Shown here in pieces: positions 54,213-57,956 of a stretch of DNA of 64,000 nucleotides. How positions within the stretch are numbered: the stretch's first letter is position 1; every line of letters begins with the position of its first letter. The notes beneath the pieces were generated by a model, which worked only from the letters and a program-made list of their open reading frames with translations, did no database searches and was not told the origin of the DNA. The stretch is from assembly GCA_029945945.1 (NCBI GenBank), contig JAQSDM010000011.1, positions 248,001 to 312,000 of the forward strand, in the 5' to 3' direction. A program made the translations under genes and the position numbers. This DNA is from Algoriphagus sp. (GTDB lineage Bacteria; Bacteroidota; Bacteroidia; Cytophagales; Cyclobacteriaceae).

Positions 54213-54235
54213 GCTGATCTTTTTCTTAATTATTG

Positions 54236-54269
54236 AAAGAGGCGGGAGTAATCTCGCCTCTTTTTTTTT
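54236..54269 (+). terminator. rho-independent terminator after secDF
   Basis: GAGGCGggagtaatctCGCCTC followed by a T-run. Confidence 0.85.
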
Positions 54270-54347
54270 CTGTAATTGGGAAAAAACCTATCTTTTCAGA
54301 CAATACTTAATTTTTAAAATCTCACATTTTAAACCACCTTTTAAAAA

Positions 54348-54722
54348 ATGAAAATCAGCAAGCAAGATTTCCTGGACATGCAGGCCAAGTACATGAAAGA
54401 AGTGAAAAAGGGGAAACCCGGAAAAAACAAAACAACCGATATAACCGATCAGACAGATTGGATTTTTTTTGACCGGGAAACACTCGAAAATATCCTGGCA
54501 CAAGCAGATAAGGATCCAAAAAAAGGAGGAATCAAGTTTTATTTGACGGAGTACACTGAAGAAACAGCCTCCACAATTCACCCTGAAAATCCTGAAACAT
54601 ATGTTGGACGATTGGCCTTGGTACTTTCTCCCGTTACCTCAGAAAGTGTAGAAATCACTGGAGCGGATGGAGATGGAAACTATTACAATAAAGGTGTTGC
54701 TTGCCCGCCAACTTGTCAGTAA
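54348..54722 (+). CDS. small hypothetical protein with C-terminal CxxxC tail (ACPPTCQ)
   Basis: MKISKQDFLDMQAKYMKEVKKGKPGKNKTTDITDQTDWIFFDRETLENILAQ...DGDGNYYNKGVACPPTCQ; AT-rich leader upstream. Confidence 0.75.
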   Translation: MKISKQDFLDMQAKYMKEVKKGKPGKNKTTDITDQTDWIFFDRETLENILAQADKDPKKGGIKFYLTEYTEETASTIHPENPETYVGRLALVLSPVTSESVEITGADGDGNYYNKGVACPPTCQ

Positions 54723-55495
54723 ACCGACTGAATGTGCTAATTGAATACTTTCAAAAGACTTTAAATCTTCCTTATTTCATTCTGATAAATCTTTTGGGGA
54801 TTTTGGTTTTGATTGCCTTTCTAGCTTTGCCTAAAGAGAAAAAGAAAAAACCAGAATTCCTTTTAGCTTTTGTATTTGTGATACTTTTAACTTTTTACGA
54901 AAATTTTGCCTATTATCTTATTGTAGATAAAAAGCTCAATGAGTTTTTTCACGGACTGATCACCGATACACCTTTTCAGGGATGGAATCTCTGGGTTTTC
55001 AATCTATTCAACGATCAGCTTTCCAAAATCCTTTTGCTCATGGTTATTTTGGTTAATGTCTACGGAAAGACTCGCAGGCTGGCATTAAAAATAACTATTT
55101 TATTATTCTGCCTATCCTGCTTTTTTCTTCAACTTTTGGGGATAGAGCCCCTTTACAGTTTCCAAACAATAATTTATTTAATTGGGAATTCTGCTTTAAT
55201 TGTGGCTTGTGGATTATACTTCGTCGATCTGCTCTCACATGAGAAGCACCTTGACACTAACCCACTGAAGTCCTGGAGCTTCTGGTCCATTACCCTAATC
55301 CTATTCGAAAGTACGGTGGTTTTCCTGGCTGACATAGCCTATTCCTACCTGGCTTTCAATAATGTGGAATTATATAATTTTTTTAATTTAGTTTCCCAAG
55401 TTCTTTATGTCCTATTGATTATAGTGTTGGTATTTACAATTGTCTCAGAAATATTTTTTGAATTCTTTAAAGCCAAACTAGACCATGACACCTGA
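54701..55495 (+). CDS. multi-TM membrane protein of unknown function (start uncertain; GTG at 54734 possible)
   Basis: Many hydrophobic segments (LPYFILINLLGILVLIAFLALP..., PEFLLAFVFVILLTFYENFAYYLIV...); overlaps downstream kinase gene by 11 bp. Confidence 0.75.
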   Translation: MPANLSVNRLNVLIEYFQKTLNLPYFILINLLGILVLIAFLALPKEKKKKPEFLLAFVFVILLTFYENFAYYLIVDKKLNEFFHGLITDTPFQGWNLWVFNLFNDQLSKILLLMVILVNVYGKTRRLALKITILLFCLSCFFLQLLGIEPLYSFQTIIYLIGNSALIVACGLYFVDLLSHEKHLDTNPLKSWSFWSITLILFESTVVFLADIAYSYLAFNNVELYNFFNLVSQVLYVLLIIVLVFTIVSEIFFEFFKAKLDHDT

Positions 55496-56240
55496 GGAAA
55501 ACCAAATCACTTTTATTTTATTTGCAGGTGCTTTTTTAGCAGCACTTATGGGGGTATTCGTTGTGGCAATGGTTGTGCTCCATCGTCAACGGCAAATCCA
55601 AAACCGCCAGAAACTGGATCAAATAAAAACCGAACATGAGAAAACCTTGCTCAATATCGAAAATGAAATTCAGCAGGAAACCCTCTCTCACATTGGAAGA
55701 GAACTACATGATAACATTGGCCAATTACTATCGCTTGCCAAATTGAACTTTGGTTCGGCCAAGCCCGAAAAACAATCTGAAGGCAAAGTAATCCTCAATC
55801 AAATCATCAAAGAAGTTCGCGGACTTTCCAAAACACTTAATATCGACTGGGTGGAATCAATCTCCCTCGATGACTTTTTCAATCAGGAATTAGGAAAAAT
55901 ACAAGCTACCGGATTTTGCAAAACCTCTTTGGAAAATAACTTGGAAGATTTCGACCTCACCAAAGATCAAAAACTGGTTTTAATCCGGGTCACTCAGGAA
56001 TGTCTCAATAATGCCCTCAAACACGCTTCTCCTGAAAAGATAGAAGTGAAAATCTACCAGAATGGAAAAGGAAAGGTCATCCGGATAATCGATGACGGAA
56101 AAGGATTTGATCAAACTGTCCAATCAACTGGAAGCGGCATGACAAATCTGAAAAAACGAATGGAAACCATCGGAGGTGAGTTCCAACTGACATCTGTCGT
56201 CGGAAAAGGAACGGATATCAAACTCTTATTGCCAATCTGA
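55485..56240 (+). CDS. sensor histidine kinase (HisKA_3/HATPase type)
   Basis: Single N-terminal TM; HIGRELHDNIGQLLSLAKLNF; VTQECLNNALKHA; IIDDGKGFD; GSGMTNLKKRMETIGG. Confidence 0.94.
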   Translation: MTPEENQITFILFAGAFLAALMGVFVVAMVVLHRQRQIQNRQKLDQIKTEHEKTLLNIENEIQQETLSHIGRELHDNIGQLLSLAKLNFGSAKPEKQSEGKVILNQIIKEVRGLSKTLNIDWVESISLDDFFNQELGKIQATGFCKTSLENNLEDFDLTKDQKLVLIRVTQECLNNALKHASPEKIEVKIYQNGKGKVIRIIDDGKGFDQTVQSTGSGMTNLKKRMETIGGEFQLTSVVGKGTDIKLLLPI

Positions 56241-56278
56241 TATTTAGCATTTACTTTAGATTTCATTCACCACCTACC

Positions 56279-56905
56279 ATGATCCGAATAGCCCTTGCCG
56301 ATGACCACACCCTTTTTGCAAAAGGCATCGAGGGTATTCTTGAGGAACATGAAGATTTACAGATTCTCGGCCTGTTCCCGAATGGAAAGGAATTAATCGA
56401 TTTCCTGCCAGGAAACGATGTAGATGTGGTCCTGACCGATCTCAATATGCCGATTTTAGATGGTTTTGGGGTTTTGGATACCTGCAAAAAGAATTTCCCC
56501 CAAGTCAAATTAGTCGTGCTTTCTATGTACGATGATGAGAAAATCTACAGGAATTGTCTTCAGAAAGGTGCCGACGCTTTTATCCTTAAAGATGCTGATC
56601 CGGATGAATTAGTCTTTACCATTCATGAAGTTTTCGAAGGAAGGCACGTCCAGAATTTTGCCCGGGTTATTCAGCAAGCCAATCAGGATAATTTTTACGA
56701 TTCTTTCCGGGTCAAATACAAGCTTTCCCGCAGGGAGGTAGAAATCATGCGAATGATCAAGGATGGAATCCTCAACAAAGACATCGCCAAAGAGCTTAGT
56801 CTCAGCATCCAAACGGTGGAAACACACCGAAAAAACATCTACCTTAAATTACAAATCTCTTCCCGCATTGAGCTGGTCAATAAGGCCAATGAAATGAACT
56901 TTTGA
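56279..56905 (+). CDS. NarL/LuxR-family response regulator
   Basis: IRIALADDHTLFAKGIEGIL; DVVLTDLNMPILDGFGVL; LSRREVEIMRMIKDGILNKDIAKELSLSIQTVETHRKNIYLKL. Confidence 0.96.
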   Translation: MIRIALADDHTLFAKGIEGILEEHEDLQILGLFPNGKELIDFLPGNDVDVVLTDLNMPILDGFGVLDTCKKNFPQVKLVVLSMYDDEKIYRNCLQKGADAFILKDADPDELVFTIHEVFEGRHVQNFARVIQQANQDNFYDSFRVKYKLSRREVEIMRMIKDGILNKDIAKELSLSIQTVETHRKNIYLKLQISSRIELVNKANEMNF

Positions 56906-56909
56906 CCCC

Positions 56910-57956
56910 ATGAAAACTCCCATTCGCACCGCGCTCGTAGGCTACGGATCAGTCGCCGAAAAAATGCATGCCCCTTTGATTGATGTTTGTCCGGATCTGG
57001 ATTTTATCGGAGTGGTGGAGCGAAATGGCAATCGCTGTCAGGATAAATATTCGGGCGTCACAACTTTTCGAAGTCTGGATGAATTGCTAGAAGCTGATGT
57101 AGCAGATTTGATTGCCATCACTACGCCAAATGAGTTTCATTTTCCCATGGCAAAGCAATGCCTGCTTGCAGGAAAACACATTGTGGTGGATAAGCCGGTA
57201 ACTATTTTCTCCCGTGAAGCGGAAGAATTGGAATCCTTGGCGAAAGAGAAAAATCTGATCTGTTCGGTATTTCATAATCGGAGATACGATGGCGATATCA
57301 TGACATTGCAGCAACTGATCGCGGAAAACACCCTGGGTGATCTGGTTTATCTCGAGTCGCATTTTGATCGGTTCAGACCAATTGTATCTGAAAACTGGAG
57401 AGAAAAGGAAGTTCCCGGAAATGGGATCACTTACGATCTCGGATCTCATCTGATCGATCAGGTGGTTTTACTTTTTGGTGTGCCCGACTCTATACTGGCA
57501 GACATTCGGAAACAGCGCAAAGGCGCAGTTGCAGACGATCATTTCGATATTATCCTTTTTTATCCCGGGTTCAAGGCGAGATTAACCGCCGGAGTTTTGG
57601 TTAATGCTCCGACTCCGAAGTATTTGCTTTTGGGAGAAAAAGGTTCCTATCAGAAGTTTGGCCTGGATGTACAGGAGCAAGCTTTTAAGGATGGCAAAAG
57701 ACCGGAAGGAGAAAACTGGGGTGTGGAACCTGCGGAAAATTGGGGGAAATTATTCCTCAGTTCTGAGACTGTTCCCTATCCGACTTTGAATGGAGATTAC
57801 CGGATTTTTTATCAAAATGTAGCCGATGCCATTTCAAAAGGCTCTCCGCTCGAGGTTACTATAGATCAGACCATTACCGTTTTGAAGTTGATTGAGGCTG
57901 CATTTCTGAGTAACAAACTGGGGAGAAAAATCCTGAGACCGGAAGGAAATTGGTAA
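56910..57956 (+). CDS. Gfo/Idh/MocA family oxidoreductase
   Basis: RTALVGYGSVAEKMHAPLID; ITTPNEFHFPMAKQCLLAGKHIVVDKPVTI. Confidence 0.93.
   Translation: MKTPIRTALVGYGSVAEKMHAPLIDVCPDLDFIGVVERNGNRCQDKYSGVTTFRSLDELLEADVADLIAITTPNEFHFPMAKQCLLAGKHIVVDKPVTIFSREAEELESLAKEKNLICSVFHNRRYDGDIMTLQQLIAENTLGDLVYLESHFDRFRPIVSENWREKEVPGNGITYDLGSHLIDQVVLLFGVPDSILADIRKQRKGAVADDHFDIILFYPGFKARLTAGVLVNAPTPKYLLLGEKGSYQKFGLDVQEQAFKDGKRPEGENWGVEPAENWGKLFLSSETVPYPTLNGDYRIFYQNVADAISKGSPLEVTIDQTITVLKLIEAAFLSNKLGRKILRPEGNW

Follow-up and report, generated by a model that had tools for sequence, protein, structure and literature searches.

The window, by which we mean the whole 64,000-nucleotide stretch of Algoriphagus DNA analysed here, carries downstream of secDF four genes on one strand that we refer to as P1, P2, HK and RR. 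Their ORFs lie at the positions and on the strand given in the earlier note, which had been made from the sequence alone, and the secDF terminator that it placed upstream of them is present. The features of the locus are:

54235..54264, + strand: intrinsic terminator of the upstream secDF gene, a stem-loop with a T run that separates the module from secDF
54282..54297, + strand: promoter-like block AAAAACCTATCTTTTC, resembling the Bacteroidota -7 box TAnnTTTG; likely the operon start
54348..54722, + strand: P1, putative tailed input protein of 124 aa with no signal peptide, matching no Pfam or NCBIfam family
54687..54716, + strand: P1 tail motif N114-x-G116-x-x-C119-P-P-x-C123, (nearly) invariant in Cyclobacteriaceae-like and more distant members
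54734..55495, + strand: P2, putative 7TM receptor of 253 aa from GTG 54734 (from the alignment of starts, an AF2 model and membership of one homologous family)
55485..56240, + strand: HK, HisKA_3/HATPase_c kinase with one TM near its start and no sensor domain (Pfam)
55707-55709, + strand: phosphorylatable His75 of HK
56279..56905, + strand: RR, LuxR/NarL-type response regulator with receiver Asp54 in the motif LTDLNMP (Response_reg and GerE matches)

In the ORF list P2 runs from 54701 to 55495, beginning at a TTG that the earlier note had doubted in favour of the GTG at 54734. The doubt was right: the starts of all seven Algoriphagus orthologues fall at the residue equivalent to GTG 54734, so that P2 would be 253 aa long and start 11 bp past the P1 stop codon. 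Judged by this alignment, a start at TTG 54701 is unlikely and the overlap between P1 and P2 is probably not real. The 11-bp overlap of the HK gene with the P2 gene is present as had been claimed, and the RR gene starts 38 bp after the HK gene. Orthologous loci have similar stem-loops at the position equivalent to the secDF terminator, and most of 18 Algoriphagus loci keep a TATCTTTTG-like block between the terminator and P1. The pattern alone is not rarer than chance; its conservation upstream of P1 in the orthologues suggests one promoter for the whole unit. The gene spacing, together with this block upstream of P1 as the sole conserved promoter-like element, suggests that the four genes form one operon. 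No separate promoter for the kinase pair, which the earlier note had set against its own proposal, was found. A Gfo/Idh-type oxidoreductase gene (window 56910-57956) begins 4 bp past the RR stop codon and may lie on the transcript of the module; many loci of the family have a gene of like size and start (MKKIRVALVGYGSVGEK...) after RR.

The two distal genes encode a two-component system. HK consists of HisKA_3 and HATPase_c behind one TM, and RR of Response_reg and GerE, with all four domains above the Pfam cut-offs; the description of a sensor-less kinase with one TM and a LuxR-type regulator as the fourth gene is thus borne out. H75 and the ATPase motifs are invariant in 12 diverse kinases. 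HK has no match to a HAMP domain, and its single hydrophobic segment lies at its start. Sensor-less kinases pose the question of what is sensed, and here the kinase is accompanied, across several families of Bacteroidota, by a dedicated 7TM protein and a putative input protein with a tail.

P1 has the length, the C-terminal GVACPPTCQ and the lack of a signal peptide that had been ascribed to it. Among named records the window P1 matches only Algoriphagus proteins, at 55-59% identity. Alignment of the C-termini of 24 Algoriphagus homologues confirmed the conservation of the tail, with C119, P120 and C123 invariant, as are M1, W38, G61 and G87. Among 502 further ORFs from the retrieved neighbourhoods, no CPPxC tail occurs and a loose CP..C tail occurs twice; by these sequence counts the P1 tail is beyond chance. 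The tail consensus N-x-G-x-x-C-P-P-x-C is nearly constant, follows a variable and often acidic linker, and is carried by proteins whose remainder ranges from 72 to more than 300 residues. It is not always terminal, since up to about 25 residues may come after it (loci L109, L110, L112, L137).

The two cysteines, invariant in most families, had led the earlier note to consider P1 as a redox- or metal-responsive element, and a Cys pair acting as a switch that reports to HK would be the corresponding reading of the module. This did not hold up. P1 proteins of f48 (Flavobacterium-like) and f17 have lost both cysteines and kept the prolines (NYGNIGRPPSLIY, NFGGMGHPPKMEY, NSGTLIPPSPP), in loci whose module is otherwise the same (L116, L118, L119, L121, L123), which argues against any general use of the Cys pair in redox or metal responses. 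The spacing of the second cysteine also varies (CPPxC, CPPPxxC, CPPLPVQVC). We consider such a switch very unlikely.

We had also considered that the tailed proteins might have mutually unrelated front parts. This was in part rejected: an iterated profile, tested against 2326 tailless ORFs, joined 69 tailed proteins and took up no tailless one, indicating a single, divergent core common to most of them. The shortest proteins (72-84 aa) and some of the long ones (240-330 aa) stayed outside the profile. The AF2 model of P1, built from eight Algoriphagus sequences, has a pLDDT of 43, too low to give a usable fold, and the P1 profile matched no PDB sequence below an E-value of 0.2. By simple hydropathy and lipobox rules, 21 of 94 P1 rows (which include repeat fetches of one gene) are lipoproteins or membrane-anchored and 73 have no export signal; the lipoprotein and membrane-anchored forms occur in several families and bear the same tail. 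Locus L120 encodes a 310-aa lipoprotein P1 in which the core domain seemingly occurs twice before one tail, together with two short kinases in tandem, and L159, L185, L189 and L219 resemble it by eye.

We assessed how widely these genes occur together. Of 26 good Algoriphagus genomes sampled, 25 carry P1. In the Algoriphagus P1 loci fetched, a P2 match accompanies P1, and HK is seen too, save in loci whose fetched flank is taken up by another P1 or P2 copy; several species have P1 and/or P2 in tandem. Across the family the P1 profile hits 59 of 196 genomes (25 of 77 genera), and a widened search found members in several other families of the class. We chose 40 neighbourhoods from P1 profile matches, ignoring the neighbours. 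All 40 hold P1, HK and RR on one strand and at least one P2-family gene, so that the homologues do co-occur next to NarL-type kinases, a point that the earlier note had wanted checked; in this count the P1 ORF of L136, missed by ORF picking, was placed by the P1 profile search, and L137 has another P1 copy on the opposite strand. No fifth gene is common to all 40.

The reverse test used a profile of the module kinases on 30 genomes without a P1 profile match. It yielded 36 one-TM kinases shorter than 350 aa with enough upstream sequence, repeats having been removed. A P2-family gene accompanies 27 of the 36, RR accompanies 33, and in 25 a protein encoded upstream ends in a CPx(1-6)C tail (for example KPCPPYC, SPCPPTCQ, GPCPPNCPD and GCPRPPGCP), compared with the 2 of 502 background ORFs given above. 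In nine whole genomes, 30 of 32 P2-family genes lie directly upstream of a one-TM kinase, as seen by comparing P2-profile coordinates with kinase matches by eye. Two of these nine genomes have eight P2 genes each, and module copies range from one to eight per genome.

The neighbourhoods differ in composition. Many Cyclobacteriaceae-like loci have two or three P2-family genes per single P1, and six of them (L124, L129, L131, L137, L138, L139) have at least three with one or two P1; multiple P2-family genes in a locus might encode receptor heteromers. In three loci of one genus (L107, L111, L113), RR is followed by a gene for a small protein (MKIKDLTKAEEQIMQVLWQLEKAFVKEV), which we take to be BlaI-like, and one for a membrane protein of roughly 650 aa; it is possible that this pair is regulated by or linked to the module. 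In L104 (6481-11999) and L106 (3-5223), opposite-strand genes adjoin the module; one product, of about 179 aa, is phage-collar-like (MEP..GEI..FAG.FAP.GW), and the other is very long, at about 1500 aa.

An alternative reading is that P1 gives rise to a peptide signal, its tail being cleaved, perhaps ring-closed through the cysteines, exported and read by P2 and HK as a signal of density or of neighbours. A small protein, a membrane protein, a kinase and a regulator share one operon, a short constant C-terminal segment lies behind a variable acidic linker, and P1 and P2 occur in tandem copies in several species, all of which would suit such a precursor. However, the tail is nearly invariant across families and would thus give no strain specificity as a peptide signal; it is often trailed by up to about 25 residues, and some lineages lack both cysteines. 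No protease or exporter gene is common to the loci, and P2 has no Pfam match, so that no AgrB-type peptidase is recognised. We regard a peptide precursor as unlikely. A RiPP precursor would have a conserved leader, a variable core and a modifying enzyme encoded close by; P1 has a variable front and a constant tail, opposite to this pattern, and no additional gene is common to the loci, whose flanking genes were identified in part.

The earlier note had recognised no family for the multi-TM protein P2, and P2 indeed matches neither Pfam nor NCBIfam. Its homologues can be joined: BLAST at 1e-6 connects 73 of 77, and separate subgroups reach 95-99% hhalign probability, so by sequence comparison the P2 homologues are one family. 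The AF2 model of the window protein predicts seven long helices (pLDDT 82, pTM 0.80). K+R counts over the 77 sequences are 1.7-3.0 for the inner loops and C-terminus versus 0.6-1.1 for the outer loops and N-terminus, from which we predict an N-out/C-in orientation. A microbial rhodopsin or GPCR-like fold was considered and set aside, as the Foldseek comparison with the PDB gave only weak matches, none significant (best E-value 0.047, TM-score about 0.5, rmsd about 7 Å), and no conserved Lys of the retinal-binding kind is found in TM7 among the 77 homologues. P2 is the fastest-changing part of the module, with 34-40% identity among eight sequences compared to 55-60% for P1 and roughly 65-70% for HK and RR. 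Differences in P2 between Cys-containing and Cys-less lineages are present but track kinship. The predicted outer half of P2 holds its conserved polar residues (E56 in TM2, the NN of loop 2 and a Y/N where TM3 begins), and an F-W pair at the cytoplasmic start of TM6 is conserved at 88% and 86%.

Building on the observed gene order, the two-way co-occurrence, the conserved tail and 7TM family, and the intact domains of kinase and regulator, we propose a four-component signal transduction unit in which P1 binds P2 by its tail and P2 in turn acts on the sensor-less HK and, through it, RR. We judge the chances of this mechanism to be evenly balanced. P2 would be the receptor and would pair in the membrane with the one-TM HK. 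P1 would be a dedicated input protein whose core domain carries or senses some input, and its tail N-x-G-x-x-CPPxC, stiffened by prolines and perhaps by a Cys-Cys loop, would dock, most likely on the outer side of the membrane, into a polar pocket of P2. Binding or release of the tail would alter P2, P2 would alter HK via membrane helices, and HK would phosphorylate or dephosphorylate the LuxR-type RR. We infer the contact of the P1 tail with P2, its membrane side and the contact of P2 with HK from the following. A sensor-less kinase beside a 7TM protein of its own most readily suggests an output enzyme and its receptor, and the suggestion that the membrane protein serves as the sensor for the kinase gains support from the position of P2 genes directly upstream of one-TM kinases, with P1 belonging to the unit too. 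Since the most constant feature of P1 is a stiff polar tail, and its gene adjoins that of a 7TM protein, a receptor ligand or plug is the best reading of P1. An outer contact is suggested by the predicted position of the conserved P2 pocket and by the lipoprotein and membrane-anchored forms of P1, whose tails would lie on that side. Against a four-component unit, 9 of the 36 reverse-test kinases lack P2 and 11 lack a tail by the pattern used. No P2-kinase fusion, which would be Rosetta-stone evidence, was seen among the ORFs gathered.

Docking from outside does not fit the lack of an export signal in most P1 proteins, that of the window included. This is what would be expected if P1 acted in the cytoplasm as a sensor or anti-sensor, its tail contacting P2 from the inner side or binding HK directly, and the most conserved feature of P2, the FW pair, is at its cytoplasmic face. 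However, the presence of the same tail on lipoprotein and membrane-anchored P1 of several families, and the location of the conserved polar residues of P2 in the outer half, argue against it, and we think a cytoplasmic site of action improbable.

We return to the four-component unit with outer docking of the tail. Since neither P1 nor P2 belongs to a named family, and the module is spread, with its gene order kept, over several Bacteroidota families, it looks like a widespread Bacteroidota sensing system that is not yet described. A literature search for CPPxC, for three-component and peptide signalling in Bacteroidetes, and for orphan kinase-7TM pairs found no description of the unit, which is weak evidence given thin coverage of subscription journals. 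More tentatively, and with considerable doubt, the module could be a phylum-wide bacterial counterpart of ligand/7TM-receptor pairs, in which a self-made protein acts through its constant Cys-Pro tail on an enzyme-less 7TM protein and this on a separate sensor-less kinase, with as many as eight copies in a genome. Should the 7TM protein indeed have the tail as its ligand, a major phylum would harbour a large receptor class that has gone unstudied.

The module shares traits with several known systems. In UhpC-UhpB-UhpA, a separate polytopic receptor signals to a HisKA_3 kinase and a LuxR-type regulator, an arrangement similar to that of P2, HK and RR, and UhpB is among the nearest NCBIfam kinase models for HK. 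UhpC is large and homologous to transporters, UhpB contributes a multi-TM part of its own, and the system has no tailed protein, whereas P2 is a predicted 7TM protein of about 215-250 aa with no transporter (major facilitator) match, HK has one TM, and tailed P1 is present. Agr-type quorum sensing employs the AgrB peptidase, an HPK10-type kinase and a LytTR regulator. As in the module, a small protein, a membrane protein, a kinase and a regulator are encoded within one operon; unlike Agr, the module has no AgrB match in P2, a HisKA_3 rather than an HPK10 kinase, a GerE/LuxR rather than a LytTR regulator, and a tail that is constant across families.

In the LiaF-LiaS-LiaR system of the Firmicutes intramembrane-sensing kinases, an accessory membrane protein from the same operon sets kinase activity (PMC7191749). 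The module resembles it in having a kinase with little or no outer sensor part, a LuxR-type regulator and a co-operonic accessory membrane protein (PMC7191749). By analogy, the step from P2 to HK likely runs via TM helices, as has been proposed for accessory-protein-dependent kinases such as LiaS (PMC7191749). However, intramembrane-sensing kinases of the LiaS type combine two TM, a very short outer linker and HAMP, whereas HK shows a single TM and matches no HAMP domain; a tailed fourth component is absent from LiaFSR, and P2, having no Pfam or NCBIfam match, is not recognisable as a LiaF homologue. The kinase QseE is activated by QseG, an accessory lipoprotein encoded with it (PMC12691602). 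Some P1 are likewise lipoproteins encoded with a kinase, while most are not, and QseG is described as acting on QseE without a 7TM partner (PMC12691602). Because the defining features of LiaFSR, UhpABC and Agr were tested and are not those of the module, we keep it apart from all three and class it as a two-component system extended by two new accessory components.
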